From: Hyphomicrobium methylovorum | GTDB lineage: Bacteria; Pseudomonadota; Alphaproteobacteria; Rhizobiales; Hyphomicrobiaceae | Direction: 5' to 3' | NCBI RefSeq assembly: GCF_013626205.1 | Contig: NZ_QHJE01000001.1 | Coordinates: 3,266,501-3,330,500 of the forward strand | DNA length: 64,000 nt | In this document: one piece after another, positions 6,454 to 17,931 of the stretch | How the letters are laid out: each line of letters begins with the position of its first letter | Numbering within the stretch: position 1 is the stretch's first letter | The notes under the pieces: generated by a model | Told to the model about the DNA's origin: nothing | Databases searched by the model: none | The model's input: the letters and a program-made list of their open reading frames with translations, nothing else | Program-made: the position numbers and the translations under genes

Positions 6454-7878
6454 TCACCACAGCAGATAGCGGATCGCGATATCTGTGACGCGGCGAAACG
6501 GCGGACGCAGAAAGCCACCCAGATTCCAGCGTGATTGCTCGAAGACGCCTTTGGCGTGGCTCATGTTCCTGAAGCCTTCGGGGCCGTGATAGGCGCCCAT
6601 ACCGCTGGCGCCGACGCCGCCGAACGGCAGATCGTTTTGCACGTAGTGCATCAGCGTATCGTTAATCGTCACATTGCCCGAGGTTGTGCGCGCCAAAACC
6701 TTGCGGCGATCCTCTCCGTCATTGCCGAAGTAATAGAGCGCCAACGGACGATCATGCCGGTTCACCAGTTTGATGGCTTCGTCGATGCTATCGTACGTGA
6801 CGAGGGGGAGGATTGGTCCGAAGATCTCGTCCTTCATCACCGCCATGTCCATCGTGACGTTGAGCATAAGCACGGGCGAGGCTTTGCCTGTGTCGTTGCC
6901 CGCCGGTGTTTCGGGCCCGAGCGGGACGATGGTTGCGCCCTTCTTTCGTGCGTCTGCCAGCAGGTCGCGCAGGCGCGTCTGGTGGCGGGCATTGATGATG
7001 GACGTGTAATTCCGGCTGGCTGCGCCTTCGGGATAGAGTGCCTGCACTGCTGTCTTGTAATGCTCGGCGAACGTGGTGGCTTTGTCGCGCGGGACGAGGA
7101 CGAAATCCGGCGCGATGCAGGTTTGTCCCGCGTTGGCCAATTTGCCGTAAGCGATGCTGACGGCTGCGCGTTCGAAGTCCGCGTCATGTCCGAGGATGGC
7201 GGGTGATTTGCCGCCGAGTTCGAGCGTGACCGGTACGAGGTTTTCGGCGGCGTTTTTCAGGACAGAGGTGCCGACGGCGGTGCTGCCGGTGAACACCAGA
7301 TGGTCGAACGGCAGGCTTGCGAACACTGAACCTGTTTCTGGGCCGCCGCAGGTGACAGAAACCTGATCCTCGGGGAAGAGTTTGCCCAGCATATCCTTCA
7401 TGAGTGCCGAGGTGGCTGGCGTGTGCTCGGACGGTTTCAGCATGACGCGGTTACCCGCTGCGATCGCCGTCGCCAACGGCATCAGCGCCAGCGAGAAGGG
7501 GTAATTCCAGGGCGAGATGATGCCGACGACACCGAGCGGCTGATACATCACATAGGACGACGCCGGGATGAAATGCAGGGAGTTGCGGCGTCGCTCGGGG
7601 CGCATCCATTTGCGGAGGTTGCGGCGCAAGTAATTGATTGTCTGAATAAGTGGGATCAGCTCCATGATCCGCGTCTCATAGGCGGACCGATTGCCGAAAT
7701 CCGAGCTGACGGCCGCCTCTATTGCTGCGCGGCGGGCGAGAACGGCTGATTTCAAGTGCGCAAGGTCGGCTTTGCGCTGCTTGAGATCGGGTGGCCCATC
7801 CTGCAGGAAAGCTGCTCGTTGCTTTGCAAGAACGCCACTTAGGACGAACTGGTTGTTGACCAAAACATGGGCTGTCAT
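6454..7878 (-). CDS. NAD(P)-dependent aldehyde dehydrogenase, coniferyl-aldehyde-dehydrogenase-like
   Basis: An ALDH-superfamily protein with GIISPWNYPFSLALMPLATA (cofactor entrance), FTGSTAVGTSVLKNA, ELGGKSPAIL carrying the catalytic Glu, and the nucleophile motif NAGQTCIAPDFVLVP with the active Cys. The C-terminal MHYVQNDLPFGGVGASGMGAYHG and overall length match the class 3/coniferyl-aldehyde group. The preferred ATG at 7878 has AAAGGA 10 bases upstream; an earlier in-frame ATG at 8007 would add 43 unlikely residues. The substrate is an aldehyde that cannot be predicted. It lies 68 bp upstream of the dmrA-like gene on the same strand and may be cotranscribed with it. Confidence 0.88.
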   Translation of the reverse strand: MTAHVLVNNQFVLSGVLAKQRAAFLQDGPPDLKQRKADLAHLKSAVLARRAAIEAAVSSDFGNRSAYETRIMELIPLIQTINYLRRNLRKWMRPERRRNSLHFIPASSYVMYQPLGVVGIISPWNYPFSLALMPLATAIAAGNRVMLKPSEHTPATSALMKDMLGKLFPEDQVSVTCGGPETGSVFASLPFDHLVFTGSTAVGTSVLKNAAENLVPVTLELGGKSPAILGHDADFERAAVSIAYGKLANAGQTCIAPDFVLVPRDKATTFAEHYKTAVQALYPEGAASRNYTSIINARHQTRLRDLLADARKKGATIVPLGPETPAGNDTGKASPVLMLNVTMDMAVMKDEIFGPILPLVTYDSIDEAIKLVNRHDRPLALYYFGNDGEDRRKVLARTTSGNVTINDTLMHYVQNDLPFGGVGASGMGAYHGPEGFRNMSHAKGVFEQSRWNLGGFLRPPFRRVTDIAIRYLLW

Positions 7879-8229
7879 CAACGGGTTATCCTTTGTCACG
7901 TCCGGTCTTTTTGGCGATGTGTGAGAGATCAACGCCTGAGTAAGGACTCGGTTACCATATGCACCCCGAGCTTCATTCGGCAATTGTGGCAGCATTGTCG
8001 TCCCCACCTCTTAGGGAGGGTGGGGCGATCGAGGATGTGGGGTTGCCCGTCCGGTGAGAGCAAAACGTATCAACCCACTAGGAGCCGATGCGTTTCAGCG
8101 CCTGTGGGGGGACGTGTAGCCGCGTCATCACTGACGCATGGCATCCGCGCGTGCGAACACCAGCGTTGACGCGCGAGGCCGAGCGATGCGGAAGAGTTGA
8201 GAAAAGGGGTTGTGAGACGCCTACGCGGA
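7879..8229. other. 351-bp intergenic region between the phc-like locus and the aldehyde dehydrogenase
   Basis: Both neighbours are on the minus strand, so this region holds the end of the signalling operon and the promoter of the dehydrogenase gene. A perfect inverted repeat GCGTCA-TCAC-TGACGC lies at 8122-8137 without a T-run. I find no convincing ORF or RNA gene. Confidence 0.5.
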
Positions 8230-9483
8230 TCAGGCCGCGGAGACATCCAACGTTCCGAGCACCCAGCGTTCGTATTCGTCGCTTAGATCCTGGACCCATT
8301 GTTTCGGGAACGTCTCGATTCCCCTTGAATCGCGCGCTGCGCCGAGCGGCAGGTCGATCGTAATCTGCTTGTAGCCGTTTGCCATTGGCGGGGAGGCGAC
8401 GCGACCACCGAGATGGCCGACGGCCAAGAACGACCGCAGCAGATCGCCGGCGCTCTTCGAGGTCACCTGCATGGCAGGTGTGAAGAGAACGCAGTCCTGA
8501 ATCGCCTTCGTGGGATCGCAGTTGCGCGCTTCGAACTGGATATTGGCGACGCCCGGCTCGTGGCTGAACATTTCGTGCTTGAGGTTGACGTTCAACATGC
8601 TGCCGGGAGCAGCCCAGCGGCTGATCGGCTGCATCATGCCGCGCAGCAGCGCGTGAATGGTTTCAGCGTTGACCGGAACGATGATTTTTTCCTGCTCGCT
8701 CGAAACGCGAACTTGCGGCGCGCCGTGCTCTTCGTTGATGCCCTTGGCGCACTCATGCGCAATGGCAACGAGATCGGCTTCACCGACGTCATGCCCTGTG
8801 AGCATCGCGCGGTCCATCAACTCTTCCGTCAGGTCGATGGCGCGTTGTGTTTCTTCGACGGGAATGCGCCAGTGATCCTGGACGCGGAGCTGTGACCACT
8901 GCTTCCGAACCGACGGACGCCATGCAACTTCGGACAGCGAGTCCTTCAGGTAGCGGTACATCGTTTCGGCGGCGTTGTTGTAAGGCAGCGTTCCCGCTAC
9001 GACGGAGAGGCTGTTCATGCGATCGCGCAACAGCGTGCGATGGAGCGCGCTGAGCTTGTCGCGCAGGAGCATGTCGTATTCGTTCTTGAGCAGATAGAAC
9101 GTGATCGCCTGATCGATTTCCGCTTCGAGAACCCGCAGGTCCCACGGCTTCGAGATGTAGCGAAGAATTTCGCCCTTGTTGACGGCGTCGATAGCGCTGT
9201 CGAGATCAGCGTAAGCCGTCGTCAACATGCGAACGATGTCGGGGCGTTCATTGCGGATGCGGTTCAGCAGGCTGACGCCGCTGCGGCCCGGCATGCGCTG
9301 GTCGGTGATGACAAGCGCAATGTTGTGATCGCCCGAAAGGACAAGTGCTTCGGCCTCGTCAGCGCTTGTCGCCGTGAGGACGTCGTACTTCGTACCAAAA
9401 GCTTTCTTGAAGTATTTGACCGCTTGCGGCTCGTCGTCGACGATTAGAATTTCGACGGGCTGACTAGAACGAAACGACTCCAT
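8230..9483 (-). CDS. PhcQ-like response regulator
   Basis: The N-terminal receiver domain (residues ~10-130) has the acidic pocket ILIVDDEP, phospho-acceptor Asp61 in VITDQRMPG, and the conserved lysine in YISKPWDL. The remaining ~290 residues hold no DNA-binding domain. They resemble a degenerate histidine-kinase core, with a dimerisation-like helical part and then a weak ATPase-like end. This architecture fits PhcQ of the Ralstonia phcBSRQ system. Its start overlaps the end of the hybrid kinase gene by 20 bp, so the two are translated from one mRNA. A second, related regulator is at 13606-14766. Confidence 0.75.
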   Translation of the reverse strand: MESFRSSQPVEILIVDDEPQAVKYFKKAFGTKYDVLTATSADEAEALVLSGDHNIALVITDQRMPGRSGVSLLNRIRNERPDIVRMLTTAYADLDSAIDAVNKGEILRYISKPWDLRVLEAEIDQAITFYLLKNEYDMLLRDKLSALHRTLLRDRMNSLSVVAGTLPYNNAAETMYRYLKDSLSEVAWRPSVRKQWSQLRVQDHWRIPVEETQRAIDLTEELMDRAMLTGHDVGEADLVAIAHECAKGINEEHGAPQVRVSSEQEKIIVPVNAETIHALLRGMMQPISRWAAPGSMLNVNLKHEMFSHEPGVANIQFEARNCDPTKAIQDCVLFTPAMQVTSKSAGDLLRSFLAVGHLGGRVASPPMANGYKQITIDLPLGAARDSRGIETFPKQWVQDLSDEYERWVLGTLDVSAA

Positions 9484-12100
9484 GGGAGATCTGATTCTCC
9501 TGCTCGGATGCGAGCGGCAGATTGAAAACGAATTCGGTCCACTCTCCTAGGGAACTCTTAACACTCAATGAACCACCGTGATTCGCGATGATGCGATGGC
9601 TAACGGCCAAACCGAGGCCCATTCCTTCGCCGACGTCCTTGGTCGAGAAGAACGGATCGAAGATCTGAGTCTGGATTTTCGGATCGATGCCAGTGCCGTT
9701 ATCGCGCACGGAAACGAACAATTGCTCGCCTTCTGTCCATGAGTTGATCTTGATCTCGGGGTGTCGTTCTTCTTCGACTGCGCGGACTGCAGCAACAGCG
9801 TTGACGAGCAGATTTACCAAGACTTGAGCGATGGTGGATTGCGATCCGAAGACGAGACTGTTCTCGGTTAAATTGCGCGTTATGCTTATCCCTTTCTGAA
9901 CGTGTGCCGTAAAACGGAGCGCGTGATCGATGGCGGATTCGATCGGGAAAGGACGCGGATGTTCGGGCTTCTGCGGCGCGGTAAAGCCTCTCAGGTCCGT
10001 CACGACGCGGTGGATGCGATCGTAACCTTCCTGGATGTCCTTCATCGTGTCGGCGGTGTCGGGATCGGCTTGAATCGTTGGGTCACGTGCAGCAAGTTGA
10101 AGCGCGGTGCCCATGAAGTTCAGCGGGTTTCCAATTTCGTGAAGCAGACCAGCCGCCATCGTGCCGAGCGCGCTCAGGCGGGCGTTCTGCACGAGCGCTG
10201 CTTCCGTTTCGCGCAACTGTTGCAAGCTCTGCTTCAATTCCACGTTCGTGCGCTGCAGGTCTCGTTCGAGGTGTGACGCCCGAATGAGATTGGCAATGCG
10301 TGAGCGCACTTCCAGGCCGCTGAATGGCTTGATCAGGAAGTCGTCGGCGCCGTGTTTCAGCGCGATGATTTTCGCTTCCTCGTCGGCGCGCGCCGTGAGG
10401 ATGATGATCTTGATGCCGCGCGTCTCGGCGCGTTCCTTCAGCGAGCGGCAAACATCAAGTCCGCTGGCGCCAGGCAACATGACATCGAGAAGAATGAGTT
10501 CGGGCGTCAGTTTCTGCGCCATTTCGAGAGCTGCGATGCCGTCGCCCGCTTCAACAACGCGGTAGCTTTCGCGCAACATGGTTGCGAGATAGCGGCGCAT
10601 ATCCGGTTCGTCGTCGACGACGAGAAGCAGCGGCAGATCTGCGCTTGCTTCATCGTTGGTCTGTGTTTCCTGCTGCTGCAGCATCGGTGCAGGCTGATGG
10701 TCTGGTATTGTCAAAGCTTGTGATGAGGCCTTGCGATCGAACTTACGCAATGGATCTGCGATTTGATCTGGTTTGTCCTGAGAGGGCATGTCTGCAAGTG
10801 TATCTTGCTCAGAATGAGGAAAACGTAAAACGAATGTCGTGCCGTGGCCTGCGTCGCTTGATGCTGTCACGTCGCCGCCATGGCGCGTAATCAATTCTCG
10901 AACGAGCGCCAGACCAAGGCCGAGACCTTGATGGCGGCGGGTGGCTGAGCCATCGACCTGATAAAAGCGATCGAAGATGTGCGGCAGCTGATCGGGCGCG
11001 ATGCCGATGCCGGAATCCGAGATGCGCACGATAACCATGCGATCGACGTGAGCGGCCGAGACGTCGATGCGGCCTTCGGGCGGTGTGAACTTGATTGCGT
11101 TGGCGATGACGTTGCTGACGATCTTTTCGAGAGCGTCAGGGTCAGCGTTGATGATGAGGTCGCCCTGCAGTTCGCCAAGGTTGAGGTTGATGCCCTTCAT
11201 CGCTGCTAGGTGGCGCATCGATGCGGTGGTGTGGCTGAGGAAGTGAGCCATATCGATCGAGCGCTTGGCGAGCGTGGCGCGACCTTCCTCAAGGCGAATG
11301 AGGCTAAGGATGTCGTTGACCAGACGGAGCAACCGCAGCGCGTTGTTCTCGATGACTTCGAGCAGTTCCTGGGCGGGGCCGTGAAGAGCCGCGGCGTCGC
11401 TCTTCAATTTTTCGACGGGCGCGAGAATCAACGTCAGCGGTGTGCGCAGTTCGTGGCTCACGTTGGCGAAGAACTGCGACTTCAGGCGGTCCATCGCGGA
11501 CAGTTCCTGATGCTGCGCGGCGAGGCGATATTTCAACCCGAATTCGTTGAAGCGTCGGCGGTAGTTGAAGTGAACGGCCGTGACCGTGATGATGCAGGTC
11601 AGGATGAGGAAGTAGAGATTGTTCAGCAGTGTTTTGGTCATCATCTCTGCGTTTGGCACGTAGAGACAACTTATGGTGTAGATCACCAGCGTCGAAATGC
11701 AGAGCAGCGTGGCTTCGAACGGCTGCATGGCGGCGAGCACGCCGACCGCGAAGAGGATGAGGAAGAGGCCGTTATAGTAGGTCGATTCCGCGCCGGTGGT
11801 GATGCCGATCATGACGGCGATGGATGTCACCGCGATCAGCAGCCCCAACATCGTCAGCTGGCGGACATAGACCGCAGTCCGATCCCAGAAATGAAGGGCG
11901 AAGATAATTGCGATGAGCGCGGCAGCGATTAAACGGATGCTGCCCAGCGTCAGAAGAAGATCGGGATAGGAAATATAATCGAGGAAGATTCCCGCTGGAA
12001 TCAGCGTTATGCCAAGGATGCACGCGACCTTCGACTGCCTAAGCCGAAGCTCATGCTCTTCTGCTTCGAAAGCATTTTGAAGATCAGCGTTGTCATCCAT
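9464..12100 (-). CDS. Double hybrid sensor histidine kinase, PhcS-PhcR-like fusion
   Basis: 878 residues with this order: about six membrane helices (residues ~25-178), HisKA with His216 (NVSHELRTPL), HATPase with DSGIGIAP and GLGLGLALV (~320-430), a receiver with Asp539 (LILLDVMLPG) and the lysine of LIKPF, then a second kinase core with His654 (GLLHEIGNPLN) and a second HATPase (DNGTGIDP, GMGLGLAVS). Ralstonia PhcS is a membrane kinase and PhcR is a receiver-kinase protein, so this looks like both in one chain. It begins 3 bp after the methyltransferase gene and overlaps the PhcQ-like gene. Confidence 0.85.
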   Translation of the reverse strand: MDDNADLQNAFEAEEHELRLRQSKVACILGITLIPAGIFLDYISYPDLLLTLGSIRLIAAALIAIIFALHFWDRTAVYVRQLTMLGLLIAVTSIAVMIGITTGAESTYYNGLFLILFAVGVLAAMQPFEATLLCISTLVIYTISCLYVPNAEMMTKTLLNNLYFLILTCIITVTAVHFNYRRRFNEFGLKYRLAAQHQELSAMDRLKSQFFANVSHELRTPLTLILAPVEKLKSDAAALHGPAQELLEVIENNALRLLRLVNDILSLIRLEEGRATLAKRSIDMAHFLSHTTASMRHLAAMKGINLNLGELQGDLIINADPDALEKIVSNVIANAIKFTPPEGRIDVSAAHVDRMVIVRISDSGIGIAPDQLPHIFDRFYQVDGSATRRHQGLGLGLALVRELITRHGGDVTASSDAGHGTTFVLRFPHSEQDTLADMPSQDKPDQIADPLRKFDRKASSQALTIPDHQPAPMLQQQETQTNDEASADLPLLLVVDDEPDMRRYLATMLRESYRVVEAGDGIAALEMAQKLTPELILLDVMLPGASGLDVCRSLKERAETRGIKIIILTARADEEAKIIALKHGADDFLIKPFSGLEVRSRIANLIRASHLERDLQRTNVELKQSLQQLRETEAALVQNARLSALGTMAAGLLHEIGNPLNFMGTALQLAARDPTIQADPDTADTMKDIQEGYDRIHRVVTDLRGFTAPQKPEHPRPFPIESAIDHALRFTAHVQKGISITRNLTENSLVFGSQSTIAQVLVNLLVNAVAAVRAVEEERHPEIKINSWTEGEQLFVSVRDNGTGIDPKIQTQIFDPFFSTKDVGEGMGLGLAVSHRIIANHGGSLSVKSSLGEWTEFVFNLPLASEQENQISHGVVSF

Positions 12101-12103
12101 AGG

Positions 12104-13501
12104 CTAGTTTGCAGGCTTCACAATCTCGAGAAAGACGTTGATGCCAGTCTCGTCGGTGTAGACTTTCGCCAAAGCGGGGTCCGGCGCTAACCGGAGCATA
12201 TCTGACTCGTCCCGCATCACCAGATGCCATTCCATGACATGCTCCATCAAACCTTTCACAGGGTTCGATGAATGGACATTGGTGACCAGAACCCGGCCAC
12301 CTGGTTCACACCATTGATAAAATAGCTTCACGAGCTTGGCGCAGACGCGGTCCGAAAGGTAATCGAAGAGCCCTGCGCAATAGAGGACGTCATAGCTCTG
12401 GGCGGGCGTCTCCATCTCGATCGCCTGACGGAGAAGCTCCTGCACCGTCTTGAGGATATAGGTGACCTTGGGCGCTTCCGGCCTATCGGATGTGATGCTT
12501 TCGATTTGGCGTTTTGCGTAAGCCAAGGTCTCCGGATTGAAGTCCAGCAGGTCGAATGAGAAGCGCGGCGCGGCCGGATTCTTGGCGATGAAGAGCTGCA
12601 ACTCCTGAACCGGACCGCAGCCGACGTTGAGCACGCGCGGGCACTTGTTGCTACGAATGGCCTGATCGGCGGCGTCTTCCAGCATCTTTTCGAGCATGTA
12701 GATGCGGTTGCGATGCGCCTGAGGTGGTCCGCCGTTCAACAGCCATTCGTTGACGATCTGCGCGTACGTGGTCTTTCCGCCACGCTCCTTGCGGAACATC
12801 ATGTTGACCATTTCGTAGTCGCCCGCGTAGCCAAGTGGCTTTGAATAGACGCGGTTGAAGAACGGCGAGGCCATCATCAATGGTAAGAGATCACGCTGGG
12901 CCAGCTGCTTATGAGACTCGACTTCGTCGACGTCCAGCTGCCGGCAGGCATCTTCGAGTTCCATGAAAAGGCGGGTCAGGCGCGGCATGACCGGCGCTTT
13001 AATCTCTTCGAATCGCTCAGAATCGAATTTGGCTTCGTCCACGCCTTGGGCGGCTTCCGCGGTAAGATCGACCTGATCGAGCCAGAAGCTCAATTCGGAG
13101 AGAAATGAGCGGAGATCGGCGACCTTCAGCTGATAATTGGGGTCGAGCTTGTGCTGCCGCTCCCATTCATCGACGAAGCGCGCAACTTCATCTCGAAGTC
13201 CCGGGGTCGAGACCGGATCGTCGCCAAGCCGGGTCCAATCGTTCACGAGCGTAGCCGAGACGATCACCAGAATACTGGTGCTCACCACGCCCGTTACGAT
13301 GGCATCTCCCTGATAAACAACGTCCTTGCCGCGCCTCACTTTGAGGTCGGTCAAAACTTCACTCGTCTGAATTGTCGAGAAAGGATCGTAAATCTCGAAA
13401 ACGATATTCCGACGTGAAAGCTTGCTTAGTGTCCCCCGGACAGTGGTGCCCTGACTGCCGACGAACGAGACCGTGCGGTCGATGTCTCGCTCAATGCGCA
13501 A
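12104..13501 (-). CDS. PhcB-like SAM methyltransferase (putative 3-hydroxy fatty acid methyl ester synthase)
   Basis: Residues ~10-95 form a beta-rich, PilZ-like module. The C-terminal half is a class I methyltransferase with motif I PRVLNVGCGPVQEL (289-301), the acidic strand SFDLLDFNPETLAYA, and the later segment YDVLYCAGLFDYLSD. Length and order match PhcB, which in Ralstonia makes the quorum signal 3-hydroxypalmitic (or myristic) acid methyl ester. The strongest support is context: the next genes encode a PhcS/PhcR-like kinase and a PhcQ-like regulator, as in phcBSRQ. The actual substrate is not shown by sequence. Confidence 0.75.
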   Translation of the reverse strand: MRIERDIDRTVSFVGSQGTTVRGTLSKLSRRNIVFEIYDPFSTIQTSEVLTDLKVRRGKDVVYQGDAIVTGVVSTSILVIVSATLVNDWTRLGDDPVSTPGLRDEVARFVDEWERQHKLDPNYQLKVADLRSFLSELSFWLDQVDLTAEAAQGVDEAKFDSERFEEIKAPVMPRLTRLFMELEDACRQLDVDEVESHKQLAQRDLLPLMMASPFFNRVYSKPLGYAGDYEMVNMMFRKERGGKTTYAQIVNEWLLNGGPPQAHRNRIYMLEKMLEDAADQAIRSNKCPRVLNVGCGPVQELQLFIAKNPAAPRFSFDLLDFNPETLAYAKRQIESITSDRPEAPKVTYILKTVQELLRQAIEMETPAQSYDVLYCAGLFDYLSDRVCAKLVKLFYQWCEPGGRVLVTNVHSSNPVKGLMEHVMEWHLVMRDESDMLRLAPDPALAKVYTDETGINVFLEIVKPAN

Positions 13502-13605
13502 TGAACCGCTCCATTACTGAAACCCTGCAGAGCCAACATTATCATGCGGCGGTCCAGTTTTGATGCGTCAGATTAAGATCTCGTTTAGAATGAATGAGAA
13601 GATCG

Positions 13606-14766
13606 TTAATGTTTCCGGGCGTGCCGCAGCGTCACAGTGGCGGCGGGAAAGCGCAATTTCGTCACAGCCTTATCATCGGCCTCCTGGAGCAGCACTTCGC
13701 CTCCAAAGGCCCAAAGCGCGCAGCGGCTCATGCGTAGGCTCTCAGGTGAATTTCTCACCGAGTGTCCCGGGACCGTTATCACAACATCATTATAAGTCGC
13801 GCCCGGAACGAGTTTCACGGAAACGTCGCATGCGCCGTTTTCGGTTGAGGCGTGGCTAAATTCCAATTGTTCGATGAGTACGAACTCAACGATCTTTTTC
13901 GGGGCGCAGTAGGAAAAGTCGTTCCGCGCGTCGATCGTCATGCGAATGCGGCCGCCGCTCTTGCGGGTGATTTGCTCGCTTGCCTCGGACAGCGCGTTTG
14001 CCATTGAATGGGCAGACGGCGATACGCCAACTGCCAGACCTTCCGCCAAGTCGACAATCGGCTTCGCAAGAGCGCGGCAGTGTTCGACGAGCGTATGGAT
14101 GCGTGCAGCCGATGTTCCAATCTGGCCAGCGTGGAGGCGCCGCGCCCAGTTGGCCGACAACGATTGCACGGGCGATGGATTGATCGCCGTGTCGGCACCC
14201 GCGAGTGACGCGAGGCGAAGGCTTTCAGCGTCGATCTCTGCCAGAGGCTCCGTCAGTTCGCGCGATAGAACAGCGAGCAATTCAAGAGTTGCGTTTTGCG
14301 CGTCGGGATTAGCGGGATTTGCTGCGGGCGCTTCATCGAAATCATGTGTCGCTTCGGCTGCGTGCTCGCTCTGCAATGCTTCCTTCAACACATTGCAAAG
14401 CTCGTCGAAATTCCATGGCTTCGGAACGAAGCGGGAAATCGCTGCGCTGTTGATTGCTTCCTGCAGATCCACGTTCGTGTACGCGCTGGTCAAGATGCGG
14501 ACTGTGGACGGCCAAGACTTGCGTACGCTTGCGAGGAAGGCGACGCCGCTTTCGCGCGGCATGCGTTCGTCGCTGACGACGACGGAAATCGCGTCGCCTT
14601 CGGCTGCCAGGATTTTCATGGCCGCTTCGGGGTTTTCCGCAGTGACGACATCGGCATATTTGCCAACCGCCGCCTTGAAGTACTTCAGCGAGAGGGCTTC
14701 ATCGTCAACGAAGAGGATCTTGCCGCCACGGCTTGCGGTTGTTTCGATCGTTGCATGCATCGGCAA
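13606..14766 (-). CDS. Second PhcQ-like response regulator
   Basis: The receiver domain (residues ~15-135) has ILFVDDEA, phospho-acceptor Asp66 in VVSDERMPRE, TSAY at the switch threonine/serine position, and FVPKPWNF with the conserved lysine. The ~250-residue C-terminal region lacks a DNA-binding motif and looks like a degenerate histidine-kinase core (ELTEPLAEID, then MANALSEASEQITRKSGGRI). It shares the KYFK and KPW features with the 8230-9483 regulator, so the two are probably paralogues. It is upstream of the PhcB-like gene with a 104-bp gap, and could be the first gene of the operon or a separate unit. Confidence 0.75.
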   Translation of the reverse strand: MPMHATIETTASRGGKILFVDDEALSLKYFKAAVGKYADVVTAENPEAAMKILAAEGDAISVVVSDERMPRESGVAFLASVRKSWPSTVRILTSAYTNVDLQEAINSAAISRFVPKPWNFDELCNVLKEALQSEHAAEATHDFDEAPAANPANPDAQNATLELLAVLSRELTEPLAEIDAESLRLASLAGADTAINPSPVQSLSANWARRLHAGQIGTSAARIHTLVEHCRALAKPIVDLAEGLAVGVSPSAHSMANALSEASEQITRKSGGRIRMTIDARNDFSYCAPKKIVEFVLIEQLEFSHASTENGACDVSVKLVPGATYNDVVITVPGHSVRNSPESLRMSRCALWAFGGEVLLQEADDKAVTKLRFPAATVTLRHARKH

Positions 14767-15044: not shown

Positions 15045-16445
15045 CTAAACGCTCAACAACAGGTGTTCGCGTTCCCAGGGGCTGATGACGCGCATGAATT
15101 CTTCGAACTCGCTGCGTTTCAACGCCAGATAAACATGGCAGAAGCGCTGGCCGAGAATGTCGTGCAGCGGGGAGCTGTGTTCGAACTCCGTCAATGCTTC
15201 CAGTAGACCGCGCGGTAACTGGCGCCGGTTCTGATATGCGTTTCCAACCACAGCGGGGCGCGGCTCTAGTGCGGATTTCATTCCGATATATCCGCACGCG
15301 AGGCTCGCGGCGATTGCGAGATAGGGATTTGAATCCGCGCCTGCGAGACGCGTTTCCACGCGACGTGCAGCGGGTGGAGAGATTGGAACACGCAAGCCTG
15401 CCGAGCGATTGTCGTAGCCCCATTCGACGTTGATCGGCGCAGCGCTGTTGGGTACCAGGCGGCGATAGGAATTGACGTAAGGAGCGATGAGGCACATCGC
15501 GGCGGGAAGGCACGTTTGCTGTCCTGCGATGAAGTTGAAGAACAGCGGGCTGGGTTCGCCGGATTCAAGCGTGAAAATATTCTGGCCCGTCTTCGCATCA
15601 ACGATGCTTTGATGAATGTGCATGGCGCTGCCCGGCTCGTTGGCGAGCGGCTTCGCCATGAACGTCGCATAGCAGCCGTGCGTGAATGCAGCCTCGCGAA
15701 TGGTGCGCTTGAACAGAAACACCTGATCGGCGAGATCGACCGGATCACCGTGCAGCAGATTGATTTCAAGCTGCGCTGCGCCACCTTCATGGATGATCGT
15801 ATCGATCTTCAGATATTGGCGTTCGGCAAACTCGTAGATGTCGTCGACGATCTTGTCGTACTCGTCGACCGCACCGAGGCTGTAGGCTTGGCGTCCTGCG
15901 CCCGGACGACCTGAGCGCCCCATCGGCGGCTCTAGCGGATAGTCCGGATCGGGGTTTGTTTTGGTGAGATAGAATTCGATTTCGGGCGCAACGACCGGGC
16001 GCCAGCCTTCCTTGTCGTAGAGTTCGGTGATGTGCTTCAGCACGTTGCGAGGTGCAATCTCGACCGGTGCGCCGCTCTGCCAGCGCGCGTCGTGTATGAC
16101 TTGAGCTGTCGGACTTGATGCCCACGGCGCGGGGCGGATCGTCGAAAGGTCCGGCACCATCATCAAGTCGCTCTCGGCGTAGAGCTGCTGCCCGTCTTCC
16201 TCGAAGCCGACGTAGTCACCCGTGATGGTCTGATGGAAAATCGAGATCGGCAGGTGAACCGCGTCGAGCTTGACGAATTTCTCGGCCGGCATCGTCTTGC
16301 CGCGTGCGACGCCTGCGATATCGGGAATAGCGCAGTCGATTTCTTCGATCCGATGCTGGCGTAACCAGTGCCGCAGAGACTCGGGCGTCGTTCCGACACC
16401 GAATTCGCCGTCTTCGCTAGGTGGGGCGCCGAAAGAGGCCGTCAT
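15045..16445 (-). CDS. Glutamine synthetase family protein, gamma-glutamylpolyamine synthetase-like
   Basis: The 466-residue protein has the glutamine synthetase fold, with the glutamate/metal-site motifs VAPEIEFYL and EGGAAQLEINL, the ATP-site segment GSAMHIHQSI, and NRSAGLRVP near the C-terminus. It lacks the adenylylation-loop tyrosine motif of GlnA and matches the PuuA/GlnT type, which joins glutamate to amines such as putrescine. Divergently encoded beside it is a PuuB-like FAD oxidase, which supports a role in polyamine or alkylamine use. In a methylotroph, a methylamine-derived glutamyl product is a possible alternative. Confidence 0.82.
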   Translation of the reverse strand: MTASFGAPPSEDGEFGVGTTPESLRHWLRQHRIEEIDCAIPDIAGVARGKTMPAEKFVKLDAVHLPISIFHQTITGDYVGFEEDGQQLYAESDLMMVPDLSTIRPAPWASSPTAQVIHDARWQSGAPVEIAPRNVLKHITELYDKEGWRPVVAPEIEFYLTKTNPDPDYPLEPPMGRSGRPGAGRQAYSLGAVDEYDKIVDDIYEFAERQYLKIDTIIHEGGAAQLEINLLHGDPVDLADQVFLFKRTIREAAFTHGCYATFMAKPLANEPGSAMHIHQSIVDAKTGQNIFTLESGEPSPLFFNFIAGQQTCLPAAMCLIAPYVNSYRRLVPNSAAPINVEWGYDNRSAGLRVPISPPAARRVETRLAGADSNPYLAIAASLACGYIGMKSALEPRPAVVGNAYQNRRQLPRGLLEALTEFEHSSPLHDILGQRFCHVYLALKRSEFEEFMRVISPWEREHLLLSV

Positions 16446-16653
16446 GGTTGGTATCCAGATGAATGCGTTCGGTCCGAACGACCATCATACATGGACGACA
16501 GCCTCAAGGCAGCGGACGGGCGTTAGTCGTTAATGTCTAAACGCCGCATACCCGCTGTATCTTGCGTTCGTTGACCTAGGCCTTCCGTCCGTTAAGTGGC
16601 GCTTCGTGCCGGGCGTTGTCTGTGACGGTGGGGCGGTCTAAGCATTTGAGATC

Positions 16654-17931
16654 GTGACCTTGAATACTCATACACACTCCTATTACGCAGCGACGGCGAA
16701 CGCTCTGGAGCCATTTCCTGTTCTTGAAGGAACGGTGACAGCGGACGTGTGCGTTGTCGGCGGGGGCTTTTCCGGCGTAGCCGCGGCGCTGTTAATGGCG
16801 GAACGCGGGCGGTCCGTCGTGCTGGTCGAAGCGGACCGGATCGGGTCGGGCGCGTCGGGACGTAGCGGCGGGCAATTGATCGGCGGCATTAGCGGTGAAG
16901 CGGAAATCATCCGGCAGCTCGGACCGTCGGGTGCCAAGCTCGTGCGGGATATTCGCTATATCGGGCACGAGATCGTCGATCGCTGGGTTACGCGATATAG
17001 CATCGCCTGCGATTGGAAACGGGGATGGATGGAGGTCGCGACACGTCCACGCCACATGCAAGCGCTCCGCACCTATGTCGATGAGCGCCGCCGCGAGGGG
17101 GATGGCGCGGATCTGAAGATCGTGGAGCCGGAAGAGATCGGTCGCGTGCTCGGCACATCTGCCTATCATGGCGGGTACATCGATCCCTCAAGCGGGCATT
17201 TGCATCCGCTCAATCTCTGTTTGGGTGAAGCCCGTGCGGCGGCCGACATTGGCGTTCGGATATTCGAGCGTTCTCGTGTTCTCTCTCTCGGCGGCGGCGC
17301 GCGGCCTTGGGTGCAGACCGAGCGAGGGCGGGTGGAAGCGCGGATCGTCATTCTTGCCGGTGAGATTTTCGATCGCTTCGGTAAGCCGAAGCTTTCCGGT
17401 CTGATGCTGCCAACCGGAAGCTACATCATAGCGACCGAGCCTTTGAGCGAAGGTCTCGCAACAGAGATCAATCCGCAGGATCTCGCGGTGGCGGACAGCA
17501 ATGTCGTCGTCGATTATTTTCGGATGTCGGCGGATCGGCGCATGCTGTTTGGCGGGCGCTGCAACTATTCGAACCGCGATCCGAAAGACATCGCCGGGTC
17601 GATCCGTCCGCGGATGATCCAGATATTTCCGCAGCTCAGAGATGCGAAAATCGACTTCGCGTGGGGCGGGCGGATCGGCATCGTCATCAATCGTGTTCCG
17701 GCGATGGGACGGCTGGAGCCGAACCTCTATCACTTCGGGGGGTATTCGGGGCATGGGATTAGCGCGTCGCACATCGCCGCGTCGATCGTATGCGATGCGA
17801 TCTCAGGGACGACGGAGCGCTTCGATCTCTTCGACCGCATCCGTCACCGGCACTTACCGTTCAGCGGACAGTTCGGCAACGAAATGCTGGCGCTCGGAAT
17901 GCTTTACTATCGGATGCGCGATCTCATCTGA
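16654..17931 (+). CDS. FAD-dependent amine oxidoreductase, PuuB-like
   Basis: A DAO-family flavoprotein with a dinucleotide-binding motif VCVVGGGFSGVAAALLMAERG (about residues 32-52), followed by VLVEADRIGSGASGRSGG typical of gamma-glutamylputrescine oxidase and related OrdL/PuuB enzymes. The late segment WGGRIGIVINRVPAMGRLE and YSGHGISASH belong to the second flavin-contact region. The length of 425 residues is normal. It starts with GTG at 16654 or TTG at 16660, and neither has a strong Shine-Dalgarno. It is divergent from the glutamylpolyamine synthetase gene across 208 bp and ends 1 bp from the nrsF-like stop codon. Confidence 0.82.
   Translation: MTLNTHTHSYYAATANALEPFPVLEGTVTADVCVVGGGFSGVAAALLMAERGRSVVLVEADRIGSGASGRSGGQLIGGISGEAEIIRQLGPSGAKLVRDIRYIGHEIVDRWVTRYSIACDWKRGWMEVATRPRHMQALRTYVDERRREGDGADLKIVEPEEIGRVLGTSAYHGGYIDPSSGHLHPLNLCLGEARAAADIGVRIFERSRVLSLGGGARPWVQTERGRVEARIVILAGEIFDRFGKPKLSGLMLPTGSYIIATEPLSEGLATEINPQDLAVADSNVVVDYFRMSADRRMLFGGRCNYSNRDPKDIAGSIRPRMIQIFPQLRDAKIDFAWGGRIGIVINRVPAMGRLEPNLYHFGGYSGHGISASHIAASIVCDAISGTTERFDLFDRIRHRHLPFSGQFGNEMLALGMLYYRMRDLI

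Follow-up and report, generated by a model that had tools for sequence, protein, structure and literature searches.

The four genes examined here lie on the minus strand of a 64,000-nucleotide stretch of the Hyphomicrobium methylovorum genome (contig NZ_QHJE01000001.1), hereafter called the window, whose positions are used throughout. On balance, we consider it likely that they form a Phc-type signalling locus with the gene order R-B-S(long)-Q, in which a PhcB-like methyltransferase and a long form of the kinase PhcS, acting as a relay, are accompanied by a PhcR-like and a PhcQ-like response regulator. Judged by its domains and their relatives, the 878-residue kinase is a PhcS-like sensor and a PhcS-like C-terminal kinase with an extra kinase-receiver module inserted between them. 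The initial annotation had described a Phc-like quorum-sensing locus with a fused PhcS-PhcR kinase and two PhcQ-like regulators; it was largely right, and the two details that proved wrong are the kinase fusion and the second PhcQ.

The four open reading frames extend from position 14766 to 8230 and are transcribed in the order response regulator 1 (RR1, 386 aa, 13606..14766), methyltransferase (465 aa, 12104..13501, TTG start), long PhcS (878 aa, 9464..12100), and response regulator 2 (RR2, 417 aa, 8230..9483). Their positions, the 3-bp gap between methyltransferase and kinase (12101-12103), and the 20-bp overlap between kinase and RR2 (9464-9483) were exactly as annotated, and the phosphorylation sites His216 (HELRTP), Asp539 (DVMLP), and His654 (HEIGNP) were found at the annotated residues of the kinase. 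Pfam searches confirmed the proposed domain content, i.e. a receiver in the first and the fourth gene, a methyltransferase domain dependent on S-adenosylmethionine (SAM; PF13649) in the second, and HisKA plus HATPase, a receiver, and a further HisKA plus HATPase in the kinase. In RR1 and RR2 the receivers, with Asp66 and Asp61, respectively, are followed by degenerate histidine-kinase-like tails. The proposed Phc-type character of the locus was borne out by a full-length PhcB relative, by a sensor and a C-terminal kinase that match PhcS, and by a PhcQ-like last gene.

Of 22 Hyphomicrobium genomes, 15, including that of the window, encode the kinase (79-81% identity in the other 14), and the same four-gene order was found in all 15 loci read (the window and 14 further regions). 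Because both the kinase and the gene order have been kept across the genus, the locus is not a chance arrangement. When the methyltransferase was searched for in an order-level sample of 297 genomes (E 1e-40), the genome of the window was the single match; the kinase was likewise absent from three other genomes of the same genus in that sample.

The long PhcS kinase

The long PhcS comprises a sensor part with six hydrophobic segments (residues 25-176; 11516..12100), kinase 1 with His216 (10781..11515), an inner receiver with Asp539 (10295..10624), and kinase 2 with His654 (9467..10285). Kinase 1 is not present in the short PhcS proteins, and both kinases have retained the H, N, G1, and G2 motifs. 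The sensor matched 42 of the 43 short PhcS proteins of the betaproteobacterial side with 50-97 bits, the remaining one being split. Kinase 2 scored 182-227 bits against all 43, versus at most 43 bits against the 37 PhcR proteins of the betaproteobacterial side and 35-52 bits against five gammaproteobacterial PhcR proteins. A tree calculated from 81 kinase domains united kinase 2 with PhcS in one clade (support 99) and kept kinase 1 (90) and the beta- and gammaproteobacterial PhcR proteins (98) as two further groups.

For the receivers, a tree was calculated from 12 inner receivers, 38 receivers of PhcR, PhcQ, RR1, and RR2 proteins, and, as generic outgroup, 29 of the 53 receivers of the window's genome. 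The 12 inner receivers formed one clade and the 38 others another, both with a support of 99. Forcing these two groups together relative to the generic receivers cost 10 log units and was not rejected (p 0.24), so that a remote common origin is compatible with the data. In an approximately unbiased (AU) test without an outgroup, inner and PhcR receivers as one side gave p 0.555, a weak test that decides nothing. Five gammaproteobacterial loci (L081, L083, L084, L086, and the possibly mis-binned L088) contain the long kinase and separate PhcR and PhcQ genes in a row. Three verrucomicrobial loci (L094, L095, L135) also carry a receiver-kinase, the kinase of which stayed outside PhcR in the two cases tested.

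The two response regulators

The post-receiver parts of RR1 and RR2 were compared with other families as profiles, with 15 Hyphomicrobium rows each and 20 column shuffles each as controls. The RR1 tail matched PhcR with a probability of 95.1 (betaproteobacterial) and 88.6 (gammaproteobacterial), and reached 6 with the PhcS kinase. With PhcQ it reached 0.3 (betaproteobacterial), 0.1 (gammaproteobacterial), 0.1 (other Hyphomicrobiaceae), and 2.1 (planctomycetal/deltaproteobacterial). The RR2 tail matched PhcQ of the same four groups with probabilities of 71.9, 94.9, 94.8, and 97.0, respectively, and PhcR with 1.1-1.3. The score of RR1 with betaproteobacterial PhcR was 60.7, compared with at most 22.2 after shuffling, and those of RR2 with gammaproteobacterial and planctomycetal/deltaproteobacterial PhcQ were 59.0 and 77.1, compared with at most 19.5 and 22.6. 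The scores of RR1 with gammaproteobacterial PhcR and of RR2 with betaproteobacterial PhcQ were likewise above the highest of 20 shuffles.

RR1 is thus probably PhcR-like and not a second PhcQ. The annotated pair of PhcQ-like regulators stood for the last gene, the tail of which matches PhcQ, and fell for the first, the tail of which matches PhcR; the receiver trees were undecided. A recent duplication of RR2 as the origin of RR1 was rejected, as the two tails matched each other with a probability of 0.08, although the receiver trees taken alone would allow it (p 0.57). In the H-box of RR1 (SRELTEPL) the phosphoacceptor histidine has been lost, since RELTEPL stands where PhcR has HELNTPL. No DNA-binding domain was found by Pfam in RR1 or RR2; together with the worn-down kinase-like tails, this makes it probable that both bind a partner.

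A predicted structure of RR2 (pLDDT 84) had as its six best PDB matches six chains of one entry of the receiver-kinase LvrB (E 4.8e-13 to 1.3e-11). Among 23 PhcQ-like proteins, HisKA was matched in four and HATPase in three (E up to 1). A histidine just before the sequence IRN was kept in six of the 23 (L078, L081, L088, L091, L093, L105), and it was missing from three Hyphomicrobium and six betaproteobacterial rows. One report (PMC6989110) describes, in its accessible text, the PhcQ C-terminus as uncharacterised; the structural model suggests a worn-down receiver-kinase fold for it. This reading would hint at how a receiver protein lacking a DNA-binding domain may act. Arg155 of RR2 and Arg157 of C. 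necator PhcQ occupy a position that is nearly invariant among the 23 proteins, and both probably correspond to Arg154 of Ralstonia PhcQ, a residue with a reported effect.

The PhcB-like methyltransferase

The methyltransferase is 42% identical to its Cupriavidus necator relative across 463 residues, which upholds the PhcB-like label given to it before, and 77-78% identical to two members from its own genus. A search of its own genome (E 1e-3) returned the protein itself and no second copy. The exchange R22C in PhcB alters signalling, according to the part of the report available (PMC6989110). Arg22 is present in the methyltransferases of the window and of C. necator and is nearly invariant among 22 members. 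It lies in an N-terminal six-stranded part seen in the AlphaFold model (residues 9-85; 13247..13477), which none of the six Pfam matches of the window's protein touched (E up to 1). The SAM-binding domain follows at residues 258-461 (12119..12730), as delimited by Pfam and the AlphaFold model.

The six strands suggested a barrel, and a PilZ domain was considered for the N-terminus and rejected, because PilZ was not among the 24 Pfam families found in the 22 members. Weak alphaproteobacterial relatives, found in 36 of 385 genomes besides that of the window (22-32% identity, most matches starting past residue 100), and relatives on rhizobial plasmids belong to another branch and were not used. 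On a Pseudanabaena plasmid, a distant relative (29.7% identity; L032:4953-7572) has as neighbours, encoded on the opposite strand, a receiver protein and a sensor kinase.

Distribution of long and short PhcS

A scan of named genomes yielded at least 585 stretches, of which 553 were confirmed; as the best 80 were used, the range given here is a lower bound. Among these best 80 matches, six belong to the window's genus (77-82% identity), and those that follow, at 39-46%, come from Hyphomicrobiaceae metagenome-assembled genomes (MAGs), Gammaproteobacteria, Planctomycetota, Verrucomicrobiota, deltaproteobacterial MAGs, and Betaproteobacteria including Cupriavidus, Hydrogenophaga, Polaromonas, and Paraburkholderia. 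In a phylum-level sample of 398 genomes (E 1e-20) eight matched, i.e. the window's own, six full-length at 39-43%, and one partial. The C. necator locus encodes the methyltransferase, a 445-aa kinase, a 377-aa receiver-kinase, and a 335-aa receiver protein, which is the known phc order.

The 94 distinct methyltransferase loci comprise 47 with a long kinase, 45 with a short kinase, and two that were unreadable, with three of these labels assigned by hand. A PhcS-like kinase, at least in part, stands beside the methyltransferase in 93 of them; in the remaining one (L123) the contig ends. In the methyltransferase tree, a branch with a support of 100 separates 43 short and both unreadable loci from 47 long and two short loci, a pattern for which two changes suffice. 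The 43 short-side loci are betaproteobacterial, leaving aside L064-L067, whereas the hosts of long PhcS are Alpha- and Gammaproteobacteria, deltaproteobacterial MAGs, Planctomycetota, and Verrucomicrobiota. The tree is unrooted and does not by itself fix the direction, i.e. deletion in the short or insertion in the long form; that two short loci are nested among the long ones speaks for the long form having been lost at least once.

Two MAGs titled Rickettsiaceae (L129) and Rickettsia typhi (L130, a doubtful species name) combine a short PhcS with methyltransferases of the long side. A Paraburkholderia graminis plasmid carries a full-length methyltransferase relative (41.6% identity over 98%) followed by genes for one short kinase and a pair of receiver proteins. 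In this phc-like operon of a conjugative plasmid (L031:8983-13358), a receiver-only protein (135 aa annotated) occupies the PhcR position, and a shortened protein is found there in L131 and L136, too.

Proposed mechanism and its alternatives

The PhcB-like enzyme would methylate an acyl substrate, probably a carrier-bound 3-hydroxyacyl chain, to a diffusible methyl ester, which the six-segment sensor of long PhcS, by analogy with PhcS, would detect. The sensor would drive kinase 1 (His216), leading to phosphorylation of the inner receiver (Asp539), and the latter would gate the PhcS-type kinase 2 (His654), from which phosphate would pass to Asp66 of RR1 and Asp61 of RR2. Long PhcS would thereby be a receiver-controlled kinase within one chain, a role proposed from the sites and domains observed. 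RR1 and RR2 probably work through partner binding, as PhcQ does with PhcA in Ralstonia, and their partner in Hyphomicrobium is seemingly not a PhcA ortholog.

Several points weigh against this explanation. That the signal is a fatty acid methyl ester is an inference, and Cupriavidus and other Betaproteobacteria served as stand-ins for Ralstonia in the sequence comparisons. The AU test of a grouping of kinase 2 with PhcR was borderline (p 0.0501). RR1 is only 17% and 14% identical to beta- and gammaproteobacterial PhcR, respectively, and AU tests on the receivers allowed its grouping with either PhcR (p 0.60) or RR2 (p 0.57); in view of this low identity and of the undecided receiver trees, a kinship of RR1 with PhcR is likely, though unproved. 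The tail of RR1 also matched kinase 1 of the long form with a probability of 32, and that of RR2 did so with 63, near the value for betaproteobacterial PhcQ (72). The TM-scores of the matches between RR2 and LvrB were low (0.29-0.33), which makes the degenerate receiver-kinase in RR2 and PhcQ a suggestion at the level of fold. Lastly, the query taken for PhcA found three weak matches (24-27%) and no ortholog in the 22 Hyphomicrobium genomes.

The alternative that we take most seriously, although we regard it as unlikely, is a Phc-like architecture in which the product of the enzyme, another acyl ester or a modified polyketide, is what the sensor reads. In five loci (L085:2633-8956, L088:2555-8956, L094:2573-8941, L095:2470-8745, L135:2687-8935), a polyketide synthase (PKS) frame of 2082-2133 aa terminates 17-43 bp ahead of the methyltransferase gene; four of these loci are from Verrucomicrobiota and one from a gammaproteobacterial MAG (L088), and in L124 a PKS upstream of the methyltransferase is in pieces. 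In all three cases tested (L085, L088, L135) the PKS was of the reducing type (KS-AT-DH-ER-KR-ACP), and a thioesterase was matched in none of the three. A chain held on the carrier of such a PKS needs a release step, and a plausible guess is that the PhcB-like enzyme supplies it by forming the methyl ester, so that this neighbourhood hints at an acyl-carrier substrate. It also implies that substrates may vary, and the sensors of long and short forms match each other at only 50-97 bits. However, the PKS neighbour cluster includes none of the 15 Hyphomicrobium loci, and the fatty acid pathway on which PhcB draws is known to be universal. The L088 methyltransferase nests among those of Verrucomicrobiota (support 97), which indicates transfer or mis-binning of the gammaproteobacterial MAG. 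One Hydrogenophaga locus (L126) falls in the same PKS neighbour cluster.

It appears improbable that the target of the methyltransferase is a cell component or metabolite, with no role in extracellular signalling, and that the kinase senses an environmental cue, perhaps in connection with the polyamine genes nearby. This would fit the surroundings in Hyphomicrobium, where, within 9 kb, a relative of the glutamine-synthetase-like gene (15045..16445, minus strand, in the window) accompanies all 15 loci, one of the aldehyde dehydrogenase gene (6454..8007, minus strand) 14, and a PotF-like gene 13, the window's locus not being among the latter. It would also fit the failure to find PhcA and the variety of the SAM methyltransferases that rank highest among the fold matches of the enzyme. 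On the other hand, the clusters of all three flanking genes contain no locus outside Hyphomicrobium and are thus not part of the wider module, and the near-constant pairing of methyltransferase and PhcS-like kinase also speaks against this explanation.

Very improbable, and rejected here, is the originally annotated union of PhcS and PhcR in a single chain with a PhcQ copy on either side: on paper, the order histidine kinase-receiver-histidine kinase equals a PhcS kinase plus a PhcR receiver-kinase, and the borderline AU value, the joint inner and PhcR receivers that neither test rejected, and receivers that allow RR1 and RR2 to be lineage duplicates leave it some room, but it is opposed by the bit scores of kinase 2 and its clade with PhcS, by the inner receiver outside the PhcR/PhcQ clade in the tree with generic receivers, by the five loci in which long kinase and separate PhcR coexist, and by an RR1 tail that fits PhcR and neither PhcQ nor RR2.

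PhcA and the output of the locus

The query for PhcA was a C. necator candidate, a LysR protein encoded at a distance of 22 kb from the phc genes. Its N-terminus agrees with that of PhcA, an identity that the annotation does not confirm. It was chosen from only two LysR proteins read near that locus, the other of which resembles OxyR in its sequence. With this query, at E 1e-8, the annotated absence of PhcA from the window extended to the entire genome.

When 18 phc-bearing genomes were searched at E 1e-10, ten matched, i.e. C. necator itself, C. gilardii (87%), and eight others, and eight did not. The 16 genomes other than these two Cupriavidus genomes, including Hydrogenophaga, Polaromonas, and Paraburkholderia and of completeness not given, held no full-length match above 32%; one match among the eight others was partial (40% over 126 residues). 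No full-length match above 31% was found in three Betaproteobacteria with phc operons (G1021, G1022, and G1023, with loci L120, L097, and L137). As full-length PhcA matches are so rare, PhcA may not be a defining member of the wider family, and it may have been added late in Ralstonia and Cupriavidus. In the accessible part of one paper (PMC13320629), PhcQ is reported to bind PhcA and to protect it; by analogy, RR2 may bind another regulator instead of PhcA.

Relation to known systems

The locus shares with PhcBSRQ, the fatty-ester quorum-sensing system of Ralstonia and Cupriavidus, the clustering of a PhcB-like methyltransferase, a PhcS sensor and kinase, and a probably PhcR-like and a PhcQ-like receiver protein, as well as Arg22 of PhcB. 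The phosphorylated histidine of R. pseudosolanacearum PhcS is H230 in the portion of the source at hand (PMC11960443). By motif, this residue and H233 of C. necator correspond to His654 of long PhcS. The two systems differ in gene order (R-B-S-Q versus B-S-R-Q), in the extra kinase-receiver module of the Hyphomicrobium PhcS, in the PhcR-like tail without its histidine, and in that no PhcA ortholog was found.

The Lvr relay of Leptospira is similar in that the hybrid kinase LvrA is the best NCBIfam match of the kinase (residues 197-862), that the RR2 model best matches LvrB, and that both share the logic of a receiver-controlled kinase, as far as the excerpted description goes (PMC13269768). 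The kinase was not assigned as LvrA, since it scored 305 bits against NF047465, for which the cut-off is 1200. No methyltransferase is described for Lvr in the part of the literature available, and the kinase-receiver-kinase chain of Hyphomicrobium is joined to a PhcS-like sensor.

LqsA is a synthase different from PhcB. Lqs and PhcX/LqsR, which also serve small-molecule signalling, adjoin phc in some Betaproteobacteria, and the output domain of LqsR is reported to be diguanylate-cyclase-like in the available text (PMC10653808), whereas the tails of RR1 and RR2 are kinase-like. In its accessible part, the same survey of Pseudomonadota restricts phc to Betaproteobacteria. Our literature searches, for which subscription journals lay mostly and bioRxiv preprints wholly outside coverage, found no paper joining phcBSR with Hyphomicrobium and, among the titles listed, none on Phc outside Betaproteobacteria. 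The locus has a new form of the sensor kinase and a range wider than that described; that this wider range is not in print is a statement from the literature searches alone.

Phc-type chemical communication may thus be far more widespread than described. A bolder generalization, which we put forward tentatively and would expect to fail rather than to hold, is that Phc is a cross-phylum communication system (Pseudomonadota, Planctomycetota, Verrucomicrobiota, and deltaproteobacterial MAGs) in which the two-kinase relay of long PhcS is widespread and the short PhcS of Ralstonia relatives is a reduced form, Verrucomicrobiota assemble a chain on a dedicated reducing PKS for release as a methyl ester by the PhcB-like enzyme, and PhcR and PhcQ are worn-down receiver-kinases with a binding function. 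If it were true, a PKS with PhcB-like release in Verrucomicrobiota would represent a new signal class. If the loci with long PhcS work alike, the signal class would reach methylotrophs, nitrite oxidisers, planctomycetes, and Verrucomicrobia, of whose signalling chemistry little has been described. Long and short PhcS constitute a natural experiment on the coupling of sensor and kinase, with related sensors joined straight to the PhcS kinase in one lineage and placed before an extra kinase-receiver pair in others. As Hyphomicrobium, a methanol-utilizing bacterium from soil and water, can be cultured, the Phc reading is open to experiment.

Further features of the surroundings

In the locus L048, the equivalog cut-offs for PotF, PotG, and PotH were not reached, and the cut-off of the polyamine ATPase subfamily TIGR01187 was. 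A polyamine link of the Hyphomicrobium locus is a lead only. Beyond the glutamine-synthetase-like gene, an FAD oxidoreductase is encoded in the window (region 15045-17931).

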